Source of the DNA: Silvibacterium acidisoli | Lineage (GTDB): Bacteria > Acidobacteriota > Terriglobia > Terriglobales > Acidobacteriaceae | Assembly: GCA_022870745.1 (NCBI GenBank) | Contig: CP085323.1 | Coordinates: 496,001-560,000 of the forward strand | Direction: 5' to 3' | DNA length: 64,000 nt | In this document: in pieces, positions 21,177 through 36,209 of the stretch | Numbering within the stretch: position 1 is the stretch's first letter | How the letters are laid out: each line of letters opens with the position of its first letter | Notes under the pieces: generated by a model | Told to the model about the DNA's origin: nothing | The model's input: only the letters and a program-made list of their open reading frames with translations | Database searches by the model: none | Program-made: the position numbers and the translations under genes

Positions 21177-22055
21177 ATGAGTCAGTTATTGGAGGCGATC
21201 CGTTCCAACCGCGACGCCGTTCTGAACGAATGGCTAAAGAACATGCGTGAGGGCATCAGCAGGCGTGACCTGATCGATGACGCCGAGGTCTCCGAACAGG
21301 CTACCCGCATGCTCGACGCGATCATCGCGGTCACGGATGAGTCGCGGATCGCAAATCTGGCCGGCTCCGAATGGCAGCCGATCAAGGAAATGCTGGCGGA
21401 TCTCTCGGTTTCCCGCGCCGTGCAGGGATTCACTCCCTCCGAAACGGCGCTCTTCGTGCTTTCCCTGAAACCTGTGCTTTTCCAGCTCATTCGCGAGCGC
21501 TGGGGCAATAAGGCGGGCGAACTGTTTGCCGAGATCACCATCGCCGACAACTTCATCGACCGCCTGGCTCTTCACACTACCGACAGCTACATCGCGGGAC
21601 GCGACCAGGTCATCGGCCGCCAGCAGGAAGAGATGCTCGAGCTGTCGACGCCAGTGGTCACCTTATGGGATGGTATCGTCGCGCTGCCACTGATCGGCAC
21701 CCTCGACAGCGCGCGCACCCAGGTAGTGATGGAGTCGCTGCTCCAGGCCATCGTCCGTACCAACTCGCGCTTCGCGATCATCGATATCACCGGCGTTCCC
21801 ACTGTGGACACCCTGGTGGCGCAGCATCTTCTCAAGACCATCACCGCGGCCAAGCTCATGGGCGCCGAATGCATCCTGAGCGGCATCCGCCCGCAGATTG
21901 CACAGACGATCGTGCACCTGGGCATCAATCTTGAAGAGGTTGTGACCAAGGCCAAGCTGGCCGACGCTTTCCGGCTCGCTCTCGAACGCAGCAACCGCCG
22001 CGTAACGCGCACGAACTCCGCCACGCCTGCCGCGGCACCGGCCCAGGAACGCTGA
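21177..22055 (+). CDS. rsbR: Stressosome scaffold/sensor protein RsbR-like
   Basis: 292 residues from ATG 21177 (GAGGGAAA upstream). Residues ~1-150 form an all-helical N-terminal domain of the RsbRD_N kind (LNEWLKNM...), in place of a haem-globin sensor. Residues ~156-275 are a STAS domain with the RsbR signatures PLIGTLDSAR, DITGVPTVDT and GIRPQIAQTIVHLGI. Ser178 and Thr212 align by motif with the two threonines phosphorylated by RsbT in Bacillus RsbRA. With RsbS it should build the ~1.8 MDa stressosome that holds RsbT until stress. The C-terminal tail is Ala/Pro rich. Stop overlaps the rsbS start (TGATG). Confidence 0.93.
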   Translation: MSQLLEAIRSNRDAVLNEWLKNMREGISRRDLIDDAEVSEQATRMLDAIIAVTDESRIANLAGSEWQPIKEMLADLSVSRAVQGFTPSETALFVLSLKPVLFQLIRERWGNKAGELFAEITIADNFIDRLALHTTDSYIAGRDQVIGRQQEEMLELSTPVVTLWDGIVALPLIGTLDSARTQVVMESLLQAIVRTNSRFAIIDITGVPTVDTLVAQHLLKTITAAKLMGAECILSGIRPQIAQTIVHLGINLEEVVTKAKLADAFRLALERSNRRVTRTNSATPAAAPAQER

Positions 22056-22450
22056 TGGATCGCATTCCCATTCTTCGCATGGGGCCGTTCCTGCTTGTCA
22101 CCATCCAGGTGGACATGCATGACAAGCTGGCCCTGACGCTGCAGGACGACCTGACCAGCCGTATCAGCGATGTCGGTGCACGAGGCGTTCTCATCGACAT
22201 TTCCTCGCTTGAGATCGTCGATTCCTTCATCGGGCGCACACTGGCCAACATTGCCTCCATGTCCCGCGTACTCGACGCCGAAACTGTAGTTGTCGGCATG
22301 CAGCCCGCGGTGGCTATTACGCTCGTAGAGCTGGGAATGTCACTTCCCGGCATCCGCACCGCGCTCAATGTCGAACTCGGCATGGAATATCTGCGGCAAA
22401 ACACAATTGTTGAGGGGTCCGGGGATGGCTGGGACGGTTCTGAAGACTGA
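22055..22450 (+). CDS. rsbS: Stressosome STAS protein RsbS
   Basis: 131 residues, a single STAS domain. IPILRMGPFLLVTIQ opens it and IVDSFIGR holds Ser57, the counterpart of the serine RsbT phosphorylates in Bacillus RsbS. The core of the stressosome; in its unphosphorylated form it binds and silences RsbT. The C-terminus extends some 15 residues past the usual end because the frame runs into rsbT (26-base overlap), so the two are probably translationally coupled. Confidence 0.94.
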   Translation: MDRIPILRMGPFLLVTIQVDMHDKLALTLQDDLTSRISDVGARGVLIDISSLEIVDSFIGRTLANIASMSRVLDAETVVVGMQPAVAITLVELGMSLPGIRTALNVELGMEYLRQNTIVEGSGDGWDGSED

Positions 22451-22835
22451 AGCAGTCCCTGTCAGGTCCGACGCCGATGTTGTCATGGTCCGCCAGCGTG
22501 TGCGCGCCTGGGTCAACGAGATGCAGTTCAGCCTCGTCGACCAGACGAAGATCGTGACGGCAGCCAGCGAGCTTGCGCGTAATACGCTCGAACATGGCAA
22601 GGGCGGCAAGCTCGATATCTCCATGCTGCAGAACGGATACCGTAAAGGTATCCAGCTGGTGTTCAGTGACGATGGACCGGGCATTCCCGATGTCCGGCTC
22701 GCCCTCACCGATGGCTACACCACGGGCTCCGGAATGGGACTGGGACTCAGCGGCAGCAAGCGCCTGATGAACGAGTTCTACATTCAGACCGAAGTCAACC
22801 GCGGAACAACTGTAAGCTGCATCCGATGGAAGTGA
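22425..22835 (+). CDS. rsbT: Serine/threonine kinase RsbT (GHKL fold)
   Basis: 136 residues from ATG 22425, preceded by TGAGGGG inside rsbS; the frame upstream is a shadow. The GHKL ATP-site is complete: N-box SELARNTLEHG (Glu49, Asn53), G1 box DDGPGI (Asp83) and G2 box GSGMGLGLSGSKRLM. RsbT phosphorylates RsbR and RsbS on stress, is released, and then activates a partner, classically the RsbU phosphatase. No rsbU is nearby; candidate partners are the GHKL-PP2C protein and the kinases downstream. Confidence 0.94.
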   Translation: MAGTVLKTEAVPVRSDADVVMVRQRVRAWVNEMQFSLVDQTKIVTAASELARNTLEHGKGGKLDISMLQNGYRKGIQLVFSDDGPGIPDVRLALTDGYTTGSGMGLGLSGSKRLMNEFYIQTEVNRGTTVSCIRWK

Positions 22836-23842
22836 TGCTCCCCCGGAACCACGCTATTCCCATCACCGCGGCAGACGCGACGCAGGTCGGTCAGGCTCGC
22901 CGCCAGGCCGCCTTACTCGGCCAGGCGATCGGTATGGACGAGTTGCGCCTTGGCGAGCTTGGTATTGTCGTCACCGAAGCCGCACGCAATCTTGCCGTAC
23001 ACGCCAAGGCGGGCGAGATTGTCCTGTCTCCATGGGAGTTTGAGCGGTCCACCGGCATCGATATATTCGCGCTTGACCGGGCTGCCGGTATCGCCGACAT
23101 CAACGATGCCATGCGGGACGGCTACTCCACCGCCGGAACCGCAGGCGAGGGCCTGGGCGCCATGCAGCGGCTCGCCTCGACCTTGCAGATCTTCTCGCAA
23201 CCGGGGCATGGCACCGCGCTGTTCGCCCGCCTGCTCCGCGACACGAACGAAGGAGCCCAGCCTGATCCTTATAAGGCTGCCTGCATCTGCGTCCCATATC
23301 CCGGCGAGCACGTCTGCGGTGACGCCTGGAGCGCCGTTCATACGGCCGACCGGAGCGTCTACATCGTGGCCGACGGCCTGGGCCACGGTCCCCTTGCCGC
23401 CGATGCCTCGCAAGAGGCGATCCGGGTGTTTCACGAGGTAGCTGACCGCCAACCGGAGGGCATTCTCGCAGCCATCCATCTCGCGCTCTCCAAGACTCGC
23501 GGCGCCGCCGTGGCTGTCGCAGAGATTTTGCCCAAGGCCCGTGTTCTCAATTTCGCCGGTGCGGGAAATATCGCCGGTGTGATCTACTCCGAAGGAAAGA
23601 CGCGGAGCATGGTTTCGATGAACGGAACCGTGGGCCACACGGTGGCTCGCTTCCAGCAATTCGCGTACGAGTGGGCTCAGAAGTCGACGCTGATCATGCA
23701 TTCCGATGGGATCGCCACCCGCTGGAACCTCGACCAGTATCCGGGAATAGCCATGCGCCACCCCGGAATGACCGCCGCGCTGCTGTACCGCGACTTTGCG
23801 CGAGGACGCGACGATGCAACCGTGCTGGTTTCCCGCCTGTGA
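22826..23842 (+). CDS. rsbX: GHKL-PP2C fusion phosphatase (RsbX-like)
   Basis: 338 residues; ATG 22826 overlaps rsbT by ten bases. Residues ~8-138 are a second GHKL domain with N-box VTEAARNLAVHA (Glu51, Asn55), but its G1 box reads DRAAGI, losing the first glycine. Residues ~143-338 are a PP2C/SpoIIE phosphatase with metal aspartates in CGDAW (166), DGLGHG (183), SDGI (294) and DD (329-330). In Bacillus, RsbX resets the stressosome by dephosphorylating RsbS and RsbR but has no GHKL part. Here an anti-sigma-kinase-like domain is fused to the phosphatase, a form also known in gram-negative stressosome operons. Confidence 0.88.
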   Translation: MEVMLPRNHAIPITAADATQVGQARRQAALLGQAIGMDELRLGELGIVVTEAARNLAVHAKAGEIVLSPWEFERSTGIDIFALDRAAGIADINDAMRDGYSTAGTAGEGLGAMQRLASTLQIFSQPGHGTALFARLLRDTNEGAQPDPYKAACICVPYPGEHVCGDAWSAVHTADRSVYIVADGLGHGPLAADASQEAIRVFHEVADRQPEGILAAIHLALSKTRGAAVAVAEILPKARVLNFAGAGNIAGVIYSEGKTRSMVSMNGTVGHTVARFQQFAYEWAQKSTLIMHSDGIATRWNLDQYPGIAMRHPGMTAALLYRDFARGRDDATVLVSRL

Positions 23843-23850
23843 ACAAAGAA

Positions 23851-25977
23851 ATGACTGACGTGCAGCAATTCCAGATTCTCTCTCTTCGTCTCCGCACTGA
23901 AAAATCGGTTGTGGAAGCACGTCAGCGCGCCCGTGAAATCGCTGCACTGCTGGGCTTTGACAACCAGGAACAGATTCGCCTGGCTACCGCCACCTCCGAG
24001 ATTGCGCGCAATGCCTTCCGTTACGCAACCGGCGGATCTGTCAGCTTCACCCTGCGCGTCTCCGATCGCCAGCTGTTTGTCATATCGATCACCGACGAAG
24101 GCCCCGGCATCGCCCAGCTCGATCTCGTCTTGAACGGGCAGTATGTTTCAACGACTGGCCTGGGCAAGGGCATCAGCGGCACGCGCCGCCTGATGGACCA
24201 CTTTGAGATCTCGACCTCGCCGCAGGGAACGCGGGTTGAAACCGGGAAGACGCTTCCGGCCTCTGCCGCACGGTACAACGCCACCCGCATCCGCCAGCTT
24301 ATCGCCCGGTTGAAGAAAAGTTCCGATGAAGATGCGCTGACCGAGCTGGAACGCCTGAACCAGGACCTGCTAAGAACGCTCTCCGAACTGCGCGAAAAAC
24401 AGGAGATTCTCGATCAGCTCAATCGCGAGCTCGAAGACACCAATCGCGGGGTGGTCGCTCTCTATGCCGAGCTCGACCAGCGCGCAACCGACCTTCGCCG
24501 TATCTCCGACCTCAAGACCAGCTTTCTTTCGAACCTTTCGCACGAATTCCGCACTCCCCTGAACTCGATCGCCTCGCTCTGCCGCCTTCTGCTGGGCCGC
24601 GCGGATGGCGCTCTCACGTCTGAGCAGGAAAAGCAGGTTACATACATCCAGCACTCGGCTGGCGACCTGTCGGAGCTGGTCAACGACCTGCTCGATCTCA
24701 CCAAGGTCGAAGCCGGCAAAACGGACGTGAAACCGCGCAAGTTCGCGGTTGAAGACCTCTTCGGAGCGCTGCGCGGTGTGCTTAAACCGCTGCTCAACGA
24801 CAAGAACGTCGATCTTCTCTTCGAGCCCGGACGCAACCTTCCTCAGCTCTTTACCGACGAGGGCAAGCTGTCACAGATCCTGCGCAACCTGGTCTCAAAT
24901 GCCCTGAAATTCACGCTCAAAGGAAGCGTCACGGTAACGGCAGCCGCCGGGCCGAACAATCACATCGTCTTCCGCGTGCAGGACACCGGTATCGGTATCG
25001 CCCGCGAAGACCTCGAGCGCATCTTTGAGGAATTCGTCCAGATCGAGAACGATGTCCAGGGCCAGGTCAAAGGCACCGGGCTGGGCCTGCCGCTCTCACG
25101 CCGGCTCGCGGAGCTGCTCGGTGGAACCCTCGACGTAGAGAGCATTCCCGGCAAGGGCTCTACCTTTACGGTGAAACTCCCCATCTACTACAACACCGCG
25201 CAGGACAAGGCCGCGCTTCGCGAAGCAAACAGCGAGGCAACCGGCGGCACCATCCTCTTTATCGAGGACAATCGCGAAACCATCTTTATCCATGAGTCGC
25301 TGCTCAAGGACTCGAACTACCGGCTGGTTTTCGCTGTCGATATCGGCGAAGCCCGCGCCACCATCGAACACGCAGCACCCTCTCTCATCGTGCTCGACCG
25401 CCTGCTGCATAACGTAGACTCGCTCTTCTATATCGGCGAGTTACGAGAAAAGGGATTCGCCGGGCCAATCCTTGTCCTTAGCGTCGTGGACGACTCCCAT
25501 GCCGCGCTCCATGCCGGGGCCACCGCTTTTCTCGCAAAGCCGATCGAGCCCTTTACCCTGATCAACACGATCCATGAGCTGGTCAACAAGCAGCTCTCCA
25601 GGCGCATCCTTCTGGTCGACGATGATGAGGTAACGCGTTACCTGCTCGGCGGCGCCCTTTCCAAGATGGGTTTTCGCGTTCTGGAAGCGCGCAATGGCCG
25701 AGACGCCCTGCGCGTTATCCGCACCACGTTTCCGGACGTCATTTTCCTGGATATCGTGATGTCCGGCCTGAACGGCCTGGAAGTTCTCCGTGAAATCAGA
25801 AGTACGCCCGCCACTCAGGCAATCCCTGTGATCATTCACTCATCCAAGGAGCTTGAGGCGGAAGAATTGAAGCAGATTGAAGGCATGAAAGCCCTGGTAT
25901 ACCCCAAGCGCCCGATCGAGGATGGAACCGATGCCAAGCTCAGGCAGATCCTCGACCTCGCCGGGGTTCGGCAGTGA
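23851..25977 (+). CDS. Hybrid sensor histidine kinase with N-terminal RsbT-like domain and two receiver domains
   Basis: 708 residues from ATG 23851 (GTG 23839, overlapping the previous stop, is possible). Domains in order: RsbT/RsbW-like GHKL ~1-135 (N-box SEIARNAFRYA; DEGPGI; GLGKGISG), coiled coil ~150-220, HisKA with HEFRTPLNS (His231), a second GHKL catalytic domain (SNALKFT, DTGIGI, GTGLGL) to ~445, receiver 1 ~465-575 (phospho-acceptor Asp516 in VLDRLL, Lys563) and receiver 2 ~584-708 (DDD 590-592, Asp634 in FLDIVMSG, Lys686). No membrane span. It joins serine-kinase-type and histidine-kinase-type ATPase domains in one cytoplasmic protein, so it could read RsbT/RsbX state directly. Confidence 0.9.
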   Translation: MTDVQQFQILSLRLRTEKSVVEARQRAREIAALLGFDNQEQIRLATATSEIARNAFRYATGGSVSFTLRVSDRQLFVISITDEGPGIAQLDLVLNGQYVSTTGLGKGISGTRRLMDHFEISTSPQGTRVETGKTLPASAARYNATRIRQLIARLKKSSDEDALTELERLNQDLLRTLSELREKQEILDQLNRELEDTNRGVVALYAELDQRATDLRRISDLKTSFLSNLSHEFRTPLNSIASLCRLLLGRADGALTSEQEKQVTYIQHSAGDLSELVNDLLDLTKVEAGKTDVKPRKFAVEDLFGALRGVLKPLLNDKNVDLLFEPGRNLPQLFTDEGKLSQILRNLVSNALKFTLKGSVTVTAAAGPNNHIVFRVQDTGIGIAREDLERIFEEFVQIENDVQGQVKGTGLGLPLSRRLAELLGGTLDVESIPGKGSTFTVKLPIYYNTAQDKAALREANSEATGGTILFIEDNRETIFIHESLLKDSNYRLVFAVDIGEARATIEHAAPSLIVLDRLLHNVDSLFYIGELREKGFAGPILVLSVVDDSHAALHAGATAFLAKPIEPFTLINTIHELVNKQLSRRILLVDDDEVTRYLLGGALSKMGFRVLEARNGRDALRVIRTTFPDVIFLDIVMSGLNGLEVLREIRSTPATQAIPVIIHSSKELEAEELKQIEGMKALVYPKRPIEDGTDAKLRQILDLAGVRQ

Positions 25978-27428
25978 CGTTTGAACCACAGACAATCCTG
26001 TTAGTTGATGACCGGCCGGCCAGTCGATACACGATCGCGCACCCGCTTCTCCGCGCGGGCTACAAGGTGGTAGAGGCTTCGAGCGGCCGCGAGGCGCTGG
26101 AACTTGCCAACAAGCTGCCCGCCGTCATCCTCCTCGATGTACGGCTGCCCGACATCGTTGGATACGAGGTCTGCCGGCGCATCAAGGCGAATCCGCATAC
26201 CTGCCGCATCCCCGTCCTGCAGCTTTCCGCGGCCTTCATGAACAACGAGAGCAAGGTGTACGCGATCGAAAGCGGCGCGGATGCCTACATGACCCAGCCG
26301 GTCGACCCCGGCGTACTGGTGGCGACGGTCAAATCGCTCTCCCGCCTGCACGACGCGGAGAATCAGGCCAGTCTCGCGGCGCGCCAGTGGCAGGCGACCT
26401 TTGACGCTCTCAACGAAGGCATCGCGCTCATAGGTCCCAAAGGCATCATCGATCGCTGTAACCGCGCCATGACGGAGATTCTCGGCCAGTCCTACGGAGA
26501 GATTGAGGGACATCCCTCCTCGCAGCTGATCCGCGAGCGCCTCGGCGTACCGGCGTGGCCGGCTGGTGACTCCCTCACCGGCGAAACCGGTGTGGACGGG
26601 CGTTACTTCCGATACAGCCTCGACCCCATCCTGCTGGATAGCTCTCCTATCGGCAGCATCTTCATCCTCTCTGAGATCACCGACCAGCGGCGAGCAGAGG
26701 CAGCGCTGCTCTCGAGCGAACGGCTGGCGGCAACCGGCCGCATGGCCCATACCATTGCCCACGAGATCAACAATCCGCTCGAGGCGATTACCAATCTGCT
26801 CTACCTGCTGCAGCATCAGACGGACGATCCGGAAAAAACCGCTTCCTACCTCGCAACCGCCCAGAAGGAGCTGGCTCGCGTCTCCCGCATTACCCGCCAG
26901 ATTCTCTCCTTCAACCGCGAGTCTTCGATGCCGGTTCCGGTCAGCCTGTCCGAGACCATCGAGGACGTGCTCGCGCTCAACAACCGCTCCATCGTCGACA
27001 AGGCGCTACGCCTCGAAAAGAAATGGGACGAAACCCTCCATATCGAGGGATTCCCGGCGCAGCTTCGGCAGGTCTTCACGAACATCATTCGCAATTCCAT
27101 TGAGGCCTCGAGGAACGACGGCGCTCTCCACATTCGCATCTCGAAATCGACCCTCACCCGTGACGGCGGCAAAGAGGCTTGCCGTGTCACCATCTGCGAT
27201 GTAGGCAGCGGTATCCGCCCCCAGGACCTGCCGCGCATCTTCGACGCCTTCTTTACGACAAAGGATCTCAAGGGCTCAGGAGTCGGCCTATGGCTCAGCT
27301 CGACGATTATCAATGAACATGGAGGGCGTATCCAGGTCCGCAGCAGCGTCCGTCCAGGCCGCTCCGGCACCTGTATCTCTGTGATTCTGCCCTGCGCCTC
27401 GGTGGCAAAGCAGGCAAAACAGGCCTGA
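25974..27428 (+). CDS. Receiver-PAS-histidine kinase
   Basis: 484 residues; GTG 25974 overlaps the upstream stop by four bases (GTGA). Order: receiver ~6-122 (Asp12/Asp13, phospho-acceptor Asp55 in LLDVRLPD), PAS ~135-235 (ATFDALNEGIALI), HisKA with AHEINNPLEA (His263) and a GHKL domain (IIRNSIEAS, DVGSGI, GSGVGL) to ~475. The receiver has Gln108 where the conserved lysine normally stands (TQPVDP). Probably takes phosphate from, or senses, the hybrid kinase above. No DNA-binding output is encoded in the operon, so the final target lies elsewhere. Confidence 0.9.
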   Translation: MTFEPQTILLVDDRPASRYTIAHPLLRAGYKVVEASSGREALELANKLPAVILLDVRLPDIVGYEVCRRIKANPHTCRIPVLQLSAAFMNNESKVYAIESGADAYMTQPVDPGVLVATVKSLSRLHDAENQASLAARQWQATFDALNEGIALIGPKGIIDRCNRAMTEILGQSYGEIEGHPSSQLIRERLGVPAWPAGDSLTGETGVDGRYFRYSLDPILLDSSPIGSIFILSEITDQRRAEAALLSSERLAATGRMAHTIAHEINNPLEAITNLLYLLQHQTDDPEKTASYLATAQKELARVSRITRQILSFNRESSMPVPVSLSETIEDVLALNNRSIVDKALRLEKKWDETLHIEGFPAQLRQVFTNIIRNSIEASRNDGALHIRISKSTLTRDGGKEACRVTICDVGSGIRPQDLPRIFDAFFTTKDLKGSGVGLWLSSTIINEHGGRIQVRSSVRPGRSGTCISVILPCASVAKQAKQA

Positions 27429-32176: not shown

Positions 32177-32260
32177 GCGGAAGTGGTGAAATGGCAGACA
32201 CACCATCTTGAGGGGGTGGCGCCGAGAGGCATGGGGGTTCAAGTCCCCCCTTCCGCACCA
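32177..32260 (+). tRNA. tRNA-Leu (anticodon GAG)
   Basis: 84-base class II tRNA with encoded CCA. Acceptor GCGGAAG (32177-32183) pairs with CTTCCGC (32250-32256), then A and CCA. The anticodon stem CCATC/GGTGG closes the loop TTGAGGG, putting GAG at 32210-32212. A long variable arm (GCCGAGAGGC) and the T-arm GGGGGTTCAAGTCCCCC are present. It reads CUC and CUU leucine codons. secG follows 47 bases downstream, possibly on the same transcript. Confidence 0.97.
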
Positions 32261-34467: not shown

Positions 34468-34505
34468 ATGCCCGCCCCCGTTAAACTTTACGGGGCGGGC
34501 ATTTT
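34468..34505 (+). terminator. Rho-independent terminator of the desaturase gene
   Basis: ATGCCCGCCCC... pairs with ...GGGGCGGGCAT (one bulged C) and is followed by TTTT. It ends 19 bases before the histidine-kinase ATG. Confidence 0.85.
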
Positions 34506-34524
34506 CATTGCGGCCATTGGAAGC

Positions 34525-35463
34525 ATGAGAATCTCAGGTAGAAGACGCAACGTAGTGCTGTTCATCGTGCTCGGCTCGATCATGGTCGGGGTCGCGATCG
34601 CGCTCAACGTCACCTGGATCATCCTCAACTGGCGCAGCCTCGTACCGCTGCTCATCGGGATTCCCTTCTTCATCCTGCTCATCGCGGGCGTTACGCTGAA
34701 CACCATCTTCCTGGTGCGCGAAGTTCGCCGCAACGAGCGCCACGATGCCTTCCTCAACGCCGTCACGCACGAGCTGAAGACCCCGATTGCCTCGATTCGC
34801 CTTTATCTCGAAACCCTGCAAAGACGCGAACTCTCCGAAGAAAAACGGCGCGAGTTCTACGACATCATGTTTCAGGACAGCGAGTGGCTGCTGGCCACCG
34901 TCGAACAGGTGCTTAAGGCCGGAGAACTCGGCCAGCGCACCCAGGACCAGATGCGCCAGCCCGTGGACATGCGCGTGCTCGTCCGTGAGGGCATTGAGCG
35001 TACTCGAGCCCGGCATCACCTGGAGCCGGATGCCATCACCCTCGTAGAAGAAGAGCCCGTGGCCCTGCCGCTGATCGTCGATGGAAATGTCGAGGAGCTC
35101 AAGAGCATCGTCCTGAACCTGCTCGGCAACTCGGTAAAGTACTCGCCGGATGGTGTGAACGTGCAGGTGCGCCTCGGCACCCGCAACGATGCGTGGATCG
35201 TGCTGGCTGTGACCGACAACGGCATAGGCATTCCTCCGGCTCAGCTCAAGCGCATCTTCAAGCGCTTCTACCGCGTGCCCGCGCGTAACGTGCTCACGAC
35301 GAAAGGCACCGGACTCGGGCTCTTCATCGTCCGCACCATCGCCCGTCAGCATGGCGGAGATGCTTTCGCAGAAAGCCCCGGGGAAGGCCGCGGCGCCACC
35401 ATCAGCGTGCAACTGCCTCGCATGCTGCACACTGTCGAAGTCCAGAAACTGGAGGCCCATTGA
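34525..35463 (+). CDS. Membrane sensor histidine kinase
   Basis: 312 residues from ATG 34525 (MRISGRRRN); an in-frame ATG at 34468 would place a terminator hairpin inside the gene and is less likely. Two membrane helices (LFIVLGSIMVGVAIALNV and LVPLLIGIPFFILLIAGV) enclose only a very short loop, so there is no periplasmic sensor domain. Then HisKA (VTHELKTPIASI), N-box LLGNSVKYS, G1 DNGIGI and G2 GTGLGL. Pairs with the OmpR-type regulator whose start overlaps its stop by four bases. Signal unknown, possibly membrane state. Confidence 0.9.
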   Translation: MRISGRRRNVVLFIVLGSIMVGVAIALNVTWIILNWRSLVPLLIGIPFFILLIAGVTLNTIFLVREVRRNERHDAFLNAVTHELKTPIASIRLYLETLQRRELSEEKRREFYDIMFQDSEWLLATVEQVLKAGELGQRTQDQMRQPVDMRVLVREGIERTRARHHLEPDAITLVEEEPVALPLIVDGNVEELKSIVLNLLGNSVKYSPDGVNVQVRLGTRNDAWIVLAVTDNGIGIPPAQLKRIFKRFYRVPARNVLTTKGTGLGLFIVRTIARQHGGDAFAESPGEGRGATISVQLPRMLHTVEVQKLEAH

Positions 35464-36209
35464 GTTCCGCTGCCCGCATCCTCATCGTCGAAGACGAATC
35501 GCACCTCGCCCAGGGACTGCTTTTCAACCTCCAGGCCGAAGGTTATGAAGCATCGATCGCGAGCGACGGCGAATCGGCGCTGGCCCGGCTCGCCGCGCAA
35601 AACTTCGACGCCGTGCTGCTGGACGTGATGCTGCCCGGTAAATCCGGCTTCGAGGTGACTGCGGCCCTGCGCGCCGCGCAAAACTTCGTTCCCGTGCTCA
35701 TCCTCACCGCCCGCGGACGCCCGGAAGATGTGCTCGAAGGCTTTGCCTCGGGCGCAGACGACTACCTGGCCAAGCCCTTTGATTTGTCCATCCTGCTGGC
35801 CCGTCTCAACGGCCTGCTTCGCCGCATGAAGTGGCAGAAGCCGGCCGAGCCGCCTGCGCCGGAAGATGCTTCAGTCTTCGAATTCGACGGACGCCGCATC
35901 GACTTCGAGGCCCTGGAGCTGCAGGTCTCCGGCCGCGTCATCCGCCTTACCCTCATGGAAGTGGACCTGCTTCGTTACCTGGTGCGCAACCAGGGGCGCA
36001 TCATCTCCCGTAAGGAGCTGCTAGACCAGGTGTGGCACGTCCACGAAGACACCGACACCCGAGCCATCGACAACTTCATCGTGCGCCTGCGCCGCTACAT
36101 GGAAGACGAGCCCTCGGAACCGCGCTACCTCGAAACCGTGCGCGGTGTTGGCTATCGCTTCCAGGTTCCGCACCAGCAAACCGCGCCGGTGCGTCCTTTT
36201 GCTCAATAA
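35460..36209 (+). CDS. OmpR/PhoB-family response regulator
   Basis: 249 residues from TTG 35460 overlapping the kinase stop (TTGA), with GGAGG four bases before. Receiver ~6-118: acidic pair in VEDES, phospho-acceptor Asp in LLDVMLPG, Thr in LTARG, Lys in LAKPFD. C-terminal winged helix ~140-235: LTLMEVDLLRYLVRNQGRIISRKELL, RAIDNFIVRLRRYME and the closing YLETVRGVGYRF. Cognate partner of the kinase above; it may control the copper genes that follow 35 bases later, but no binding sites were identified. Confidence 0.93.
   Translation: MSSAARILIVEDESHLAQGLLFNLQAEGYEASIASDGESALARLAAQNFDAVLLDVMLPGKSGFEVTAALRAAQNFVPVLILTARGRPEDVLEGFASGADDYLAKPFDLSILLARLNGLLRRMKWQKPAEPPAPEDASVFEFDGRRIDFEALELQVSGRVIRLTLMEVDLLRYLVRNQGRIISRKELLDQVWHVHEDTDTRAIDNFIVRLRRYMEDEPSEPRYLETVRGVGYRFQVPHQQTAPVRPFAQ

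Follow-up and report, generated by a model that had tools for sequence, protein, structure and literature searches.

Introduction

Gene clusters of the rsbRSTX type have been described with phosphorelay, cyclic di-GMP (c-di-GMP) or PP2C phosphatase outputs, and in passages of PMC9237108 an RsbU_N domain is assigned to some of their clients and reported as not detected in most. For Vibrio vulnificus, passages of the same paper give no positive interaction between RsbT and D1. Vibrio stressosomes are treated in parts of PMC10014275 and PMC4976288, the former citing reviews from 2005 and 2017 for two-component outputs of stressosomes. In excerpts of PMC12143880, RsbT is reported to order the coiled-coil linker of RsbU, and such linkers are argued to accept PP2C, histidine kinase or GGDEF outputs. 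Here we describe an rsbRST operon in a 64,000-nucleotide stretch of the genome of Silvibacterium acidisoli (contig CP085323.1 of assembly GCA_022870745.1, positions 496,001 to 560,000 of the forward strand; hereafter the window, to which bare coordinates refer), in which the stressosome genes are followed by genes for a phosphatase, X, and two multidomain histidine kinases, K1 and K2. Both X and K1 begin with a GHKL domain, or head, that itself resembles RsbT. With a probability of roughly one half, we propose that the clients of the stressosome encoded here dock on its STAS core by RsbT-like heads, and that it feeds a phosphorelay running from K1 to K2.

Results

The operon consists of six genes arranged head to tail on the + strand between positions 21177 and 27428, with overlaps of 1 to 26 nucleotides at four of the five junctions. 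Its genes and domains are as follows.

21177-22055, + strand: rsbR, RsbRD_N sensor plus STAS (Pfam)
21192-21491, + strand: RsbRD_N sensor domain of RsbR (Pfam, 2.6e-26)
21669-21962, + strand: STAS domain of RsbR (Pfam, 5.6e-15)
22055-22450, + strand: rsbS, STAS protein (Pfam, PDB matches)
22425-22835, + strand: rsbT, GHKL switch kinase, start ATG 22425 (Pfam HATPase_c/HATPase_c_2)
22826-23842, + strand: X, RsbX-like PP2C phosphatase headed by an RsbT-like GHKL domain (Pfam, PDB)
22826-23245, + strand: head of X, RsbT-like GHKL (Pfam HATPase_c_2, 1.7e-7)
about 23261-23839, + strand: PP2C domain of X (Pfam SpoIIE, 5.7e-12)
23851-25977, + strand: K1 gene, head plus HisKA, HATPase_c and two receivers (ATG 23851, alternative GTG 23839)
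23851-24285, + strand: head of K1, RsbT-like GHKL domain (Pfam HATPase_c_2, 1e-13)
24286-24468, + strand: helical linker of K1, ending in NxELEDTNRGVVALYAELD (predicted helix, conservation)
24469-25977, + strand: output part of K1 (Pfam)
24514-24717, + strand: HisKA of K1 (Pfam)
24856-25185, + strand: HATPase_c of K1 (Pfam)
about 25243-25599, + strand: receiver 1 of K1 (Pfam)
about 25600-25974, + strand: receiver 2 of K1 (Pfam)
25974-27428, + strand: K2, receiver, weak PAS, HisKA and HATPase_c; its GTG start overlaps the K1 stop
25995-26330, + strand: receiver of K2 (Pfam)
26385-26519, + strand: weak PAS of K2 (Pfam, 21.5 bits at a cut-off of 21.8)
26736-26918, + strand: HisKA of K2 (Pfam)
27054-27395, + strand: HATPase_c of K2 (Pfam)

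The overlap is 1 nucleotide between rsbR and rsbS, 26 between rsbS and rsbT, 10 between rsbT and X, and 4 between K1 and K2; X and K1 are separated by 8 nucleotides if K1 starts at ATG 23851 and overlap by 4 if it starts at GTG 23839. Gene calls and Pfam agree with an initial annotation of this DNA, which had listed six tightly packed genes for RsbR, RsbS, RsbT, a GHKL-PP2C protein and two multidomain kinases. The same annotation had described the operon as devoid of RsbU, RsbV, RsbW, a sigma factor and a DNA-binding regulator, and Pfam identified none of these among the six genes. The linked RsbU, RsbV, RsbW and SigB of the SigB partner switch are accordingly missing from them, and no effector in the operon bears an RsbU_N head.

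The head of K1 is 30.6% identical to RsbT (41 of 134 aligned columns). Searched by sequence against solved chains, the K1 head and coil gave no match at E 0.001. A Foldseek comparison of the head, based on an AlphaFold model of K1 residues 1-210 (mean predicted local distance difference test score, 85.5), ranked SpoIIAB first (1til, 5e-9), with an RsbV/RsbW entry at 6.7e-7 (6m37) and the first histidine kinase at 1e-4. As modelled, the K1 head thus folds most like SpoIIAB and RsbW, which are partners of STAS proteins. A long helix predicted for residues 162-209 corresponds to the linker and may form a coiled coil; the NxELEDTNRGVVALYAELD stretch at its end is conserved among relatives.

Residue conservation was counted in 77-78 sequences each of RsbT, X heads and K1 heads. 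In SpoIIAB, R20 binds the STAS and sigma partners of the protein. The equivalent arginine, R24 of K1 by alignment, is present in 100% of the sequences in all three sets, as are E50 and N54 in the 77 K1 heads, and the N-box glutamate and asparagine are kept at 98-100% throughout. The residues R27/R28, S48/S49 and R52/R53 (RsbT/K1 numbering) are likewise at 100% in RsbT and K1, whereas X heads differ there. The G1/G2 residues of the 77 K1 heads (D82, G84, G86, G103, G105 and G107) are kept at 98-100%, so that active-site and presumed docking residues are both conserved. In an 87-row tree, the T heads and the X heads each lie on one side of a strongly supported branch; the K1 heads need two changes and fall on one side in 37% of bootstrap trees, which is compatible with a single origin. 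The initial annotation had postulated a serine/threonine switch feeding a phosphorelay. Its unit of stressosome, phosphatase and kinases is conserved, as described below, but it had overlooked the RsbT-like head of K1, which suggests a more specific link.

In the mechanism that we propose, RsbR and RsbS would build the STAS core, and RsbT, to judge from its family, would phosphorylate this core as the switch kinase. Both X and K1 would dock on the RsbR:RsbS core through their heads, which would bring X to its substrate and hold K1 off. Upon stress, phosphorylation of RsbR and RsbS would free the K1 head and order the coiled-coil linker, switching the kinase dimer on, and phosphate would then travel from the K1 receivers to the K2 receiver and on to a response regulator presumably encoded elsewhere.

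Alternatively, freed RsbT could activate K1 in trans, as it does RsbU, by binding the K1 head or linker (for example as a GHKL heterodimer), with no docking on the core. The best evidence for this alternative is the conservation of RsbT D96, which by our own mapping we take to occupy the place of D92 in Bacillus subtilis RsbT. This position is aspartate in 76 of 78 RsbT sequences (asparagine in 2), although the genome yields no RsbU_N match; it is aspartate in all 78 X heads and glycine in 75 of 77 K1 heads, so the K1 head is not simply another RsbT. Excerpts of PMC12143880 predict a salt bridge from D92 to the RsbU linker and attribute the activation of RsbU by RsbT to the ordering of that linker. 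However, K1 heads keep the arginine equivalent to R20, along with other RsbT residues, at 100%, which fits STAS binding, and we regard activation in trans as unlikely, if well worth keeping in mind. Signal flow could also be reversed, the K1 head acting as a second switch kinase that phosphorylates RsbR and RsbS and thereby modulates the stressosome. The full conservation of the N-box residues and the near invariance of the G1/G2 residues in K1 heads speak for such an activity, but one head outside that set, from locus L086, has no GxGxG stretch, and the exchange of the kinase output for GGDEF described below is easier to read if the head is an input. Reversed flow thus appears improbable to us, and docking of the heads on the STAS core remains our preferred reading.

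Of 200 genomes from the same order, 55 have RsbS relatives, a count that includes the genome of the window. We fetched 55 stretches around the RsbS matches of the other genomes (54 genomes, one with two) and defined as close relatives the 42 loci (L045-L086) whose RsbS shows at least 72% identity over most of its length. The initial annotation had stated that it would be undermined if the kinases were not conserved beside rsbRST; in these relatives R, S, T and X are all present and followed by K1 in 42 of 42 loci, and K2 is present in 38, so that stressosome, phosphatase and both kinases do form one conserved unit. Missing K2 is confined to L069 and to three loci (L055, L056 and L060) with a GGDEF domain. 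Outside the 42, a lone RsbS-like open reading frame (ORF) with a partial 75% match (L090:8580-9209, - strand) lies beside a large transporter gene resembling RND efflux; R, T and X are absent from the fetched 12 kb, and this ORF is perhaps a remnant.

Named genomes were searched with a 210-residue query comprising the K1 head and coil, using one peptide pattern followed by tblastn, and the best 80 of at least 578 relatives were kept. These comprise 38 loci from Cyanobacteriota, 30 from Acidobacteriota, 6 from Pseudomonadota, 3 from Rokuibacteriota and 1 each from Myxococcota, Binatota and Nitrospirota; the single-record phyla are weak, because many records are metagenome assemblies. R, S, T, headed X and K1 occur in this order on one strand in 76 of the best 80, over six phyla, the count referring to gene order and not to strict adjacency, with a gap or an extra ORF inside a few loci (e.g. 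L120, L151 and L176). The exceptions are L158, L163 and L168 (the Nitrospirota record), which are cut by contig ends, and L179. Behind K1, 72 of the 80 loci have a receiver-bearing ORF, and K2 was found in three more (L129, L153 and L170), giving 75; the remaining five consist of two GGDEF loci and three contig ends. Because the 42-locus and 80-locus sets share genomes, their counts are not additive. A search of the phylum gave matches in 32 of 297 genomes at E 1e-25; 11 of the 32, including the window's own, have a long K1-type match (>230 bits), always preceded on the same strand by an RsbT-type match that starts about 1.4 kb ahead of it. The gene order kept across phyla probably reflects a distinct connection between sensor and output. 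Long ORFs in L116, L128 and L170 that resembled an X-K1 fusion were dismissed as frame extensions, because Pfam found no PP2C in their N-terminal extensions and a separate X ORF lies at the usual place.

This linkage also bears on the idea that K1 and K2 form a standard two-component pair whose presence in the operon is coincidental, and that the K1 head serves another STAS protein. Candidates for such a partner exist, since the genome encodes a distant pair of RsbV/RsbW-like proteins and another small STAS protein elsewhere. Yet K1 stays linked to the stressosome genes in 76 of the best 80 named loci, over six phyla, and a headed X goes without exception with a headed K1 (42 of 42 loci), which leaves this idea with barely any credibility.

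The pairing emerged from the 51 fetched loci that have an X gene; L090, L092, L098 and L099, which have none, were left out. A headed X is accompanied by a headed K1 in 42 of 42 loci, and a headless X occurs without K1 in the fetched DNA in 9 of 9, some of these on short contigs (L087 and L089) and several from one genus and hence not independent; there are no mixed cases. Of the 9 headless-X loci, 8 have an RsbU_N protein beside X (that of L089 being cut by a contig end), and a LuxR-type regulator lies nearby in 6 of 9; L091 has the regulator and no detected RsbU_N protein. In L095, Pfam identified one protein with RsbU_N, HisKA_3 and HATPase and another with a receiver and GerE. The one RsbU_N query that we used matched none of the ORFs of the 42 headed loci. 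In 3 of the 42 (L055, L056 and L060), a diguanylate cyclase domain with GGEEF takes the place of the kinase part behind the K1 head and coil, and K2 is gone. L139, the counterpart of L056 among the named loci, matches Pfam GGDEF at 8e-44, and L159, the counterpart of L060, is from Terriglobus albidus. Because L139 nests inside the headed-kinase group of the tree, beside the window's kin, the GGDEF form looks derived.

The core of the operon has the make-up of an RsbRST module, with adjacent genes for RsbR (sensor and STAS), RsbS (STAS) and RsbT (GHKL). RsbR matches a solved RsbR (9o3o, 9.5e-33), and its S178 and T212 align with residues 175 and 209 of solved RsbR chains. Residue 175 is A, T or E in three otherwise alike PDB chains, which we read as engineered phosphosite variants. 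RsbS matches solved RsbS chains (6qcm, 5e-31; 2vy9, 4e-25); its S57, within a VDS motif, aligns with their S56, and one solved chain has alanine there. S178 and T212 of RsbR and S57 of RsbS are presumably the phosphorylated residues; by alignment, they are at the known places. In the 42 close relatives, the first RsbR site is serine in 42 of 42 and the second threonine in 42 of 42, and the VDS motif of RsbS is kept in all 42. RsbT matches Pfam HATPase_c (1.1e-13) and, among solved chains, SpoIIAB (6e-9), and possesses R23, S48, E49, R52, N53, D82 and D96. In L059 (9338-11314), two tandem RsbR genes with diverged N-terminal domains precede RsbS.

The PP2C domain of X is closest to RsbX among solved structures (3w40, 1.3e-9; 3zt9, 2.5e-8), these being the only two chains found at E 0.001. 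We call X RsbX-like only, because its N-terminal HATPase_c_2 head departs from the single-domain build of RsbX.

K1 and K2 have the parts of a two-component system, namely a HisKA histidine, a HATPase domain and receiver aspartates, those of the window being judged by eye. The phospho-histidine motif of K1 is present in 39 of 39 non-GGDEF copies (34 SHE, 5 THE). At the position of K2, L059, L073, L148 and L158 have instead a receiver joined to, or preceding, a HisKA_3-type kinase.

The only receiver that our home-made receiver model found in the window outside K1 and K2 belongs to a gene at 35460-36209 (receiver plus Trans_reg_C, Pfam), about 8 kb downstream. A histidine kinase gene precedes it (34468-36209 for both), beside genes for a fatty acid desaturase and a heavy-metal ATPase. 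We rejected this regulator as an unlikely candidate for the missing output, because it stands behind its own kinase gene and beside the desaturase and metal-transport ATPase. Among the 42 relatives, 12 loci have a receiver-bearing ORF on the same strand in the 800 bp upstream of rsbR and 4 have one on the other strand, as scored without a background rate by a receiver model built from 242 sequences that include the upstream ORFs of L067 and L068. These ORFs are candidate last steps of the phosphorelay. Seven loci (L062, L063, L064, L065, L067, L068 and L070) have receiver ORFs of 125-155 amino acids directly upstream of rsbR on the same strand; of five compared with Pfam, that of L067 scored over the cut-off, three scored below and that of L063 had no match.

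The genome is a single contig of 5.36 Mb. A genome-wide search for RsbU_N gave no match, while a control detected RsbU_N in B. subtilis, and a genome-wide search with the SigBFG model gave 11 matches, all below the cut-off. Six STAS matches were found, corresponding to the RsbR and RsbS of the operon, a sulfate-transporter-like protein, the end of a larger protein and two small STAS proteins. The RsbV/RsbW-like genes lie side by side at C1:5083284-5084023, far from the operon, and we saw no sigma gene in the surrounding stretch that we read. The genome also encodes other PP2C phosphatases, because the SpoIIE model matches eight genes including X, some of the seven others at contig ends. Upstream, the operon is flanked by a gene for a Gfo/Idh oxidoreductase and, downstream, by one for an M14 peptidase (Pfam); both look unrelated to it. 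A promoter and terminator scan found two promoter-like sites (1.3 expected) and one terminator-like site (4.8 expected) and was uninformative. The sole tRNA gene found in the window is a tRNA-Leu (gag) at 32177-32260.

Discussion

Several observations weigh against a stressosome that feeds K1 and K2 through docked heads. Our home-made receiver model found no linked output response regulator in the window. L069 has K1 without K2, and L179 has X, K1 and K2 with no R, S or T within 7 kb upstream. The relatives do not count as independent cases, and the comparison among named genomes covers the best 80, which takes in no looser relatives. The retention of D96 hints that RsbT may still bind some partner in trans. 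Finally, the K1 head of L086 (L086:6827-7468, - strand) has no GxGxG stretch in its ATP lid; head catalysis is therefore not universal, and in this kinase, at least, the head may serve solely for docking.

On a broader scale, these operons could form a separate class of stressosome, present in Acidobacteriota, Cyanobacteriota, Pseudomonadota and others, in which RsbT-like heads would be a covalent part of the clients, the partner switch, which elsewhere runs in trans from RsbT to RsbU_N, would operate in cis and the output (histidine kinase-receiver or diguanylate cyclase) would be exchangeable; we advance this tentatively, at somewhat less than even odds. The GGDEF exchange amounts to a natural experiment, and the occurrence of two wirings within one bacterial order allows their direct comparison. 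The RsbT-like head on a linked kinase is a concrete candidate for the signal connection in stressosomes outside SigB bacteria.

The operon could also be an ordinary stressosome of the published kind with a two-component output, its head being nothing special. Passages of PMC9237108 give eleven downstream architectures, including HisKA/REC phosphorelays, among which headed kinases might be found. But where those passages name a link it is RsbU_N, in some clusters, with none detected in most and a single-domain RsbX, whereas here the candidate link is an RsbT-like head and X is headed too; we give this interpretation very little weight. The literature that we searched, partly represented by excerpts, does not describe a stressosome kinase or phosphatase with an RsbT-like head, although the 2005 review or the 2017 chapter may contain one.

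Compared with the B. subtilis operon rsbRSTUVW-sigB-rsbX, the window operon shares RsbR, RsbS, RsbT and an RsbX-type phosphatase, and has histidine kinases instead of RsbU, RsbV, RsbW and SigB. SpoIIAB and RsbW, the nearest solved folds of the K1 head, are stand-alone anti-sigma kinases that hold sigma factors; in the window, this domain instead forms the N terminus of a hybrid kinase. RsbU_N-headed kinases and cyclases (as in excerpts of PMC12143880, in Moorella MtG and in 8 of our 9 headless-X loci) likewise have an N-terminally headed histidine kinase or GGDEF effector, but their head is the RsbT-binding RsbU_N, whereas that of the window is itself RsbT-like, in a genome with no RsbU_N match. 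The closest arrangements are those of V. vulnificus D1-D2, Ruegeria and others, in which, as in the window, RsbRST and an RsbX-like protein are followed by histidine kinase and receiver genes with no SigB (passages of PMC9237108 and PMC10014275). As far as these passages go, such two-component modules have a single-domain RsbX, mostly no RsbU_N (V. vulnificus included) and a globin-coupled sensor, unlike the headed X, headed K1 and RsbRD_N sensor of the window. The initial annotation had mentioned that RsbRST is often tied to two-component outputs elsewhere, and this is indeed in print in both papers. An RsbRST(X) module beside two-component genes is thus already published, and the RsbT-like heads on K1 and X appear to be the new part.

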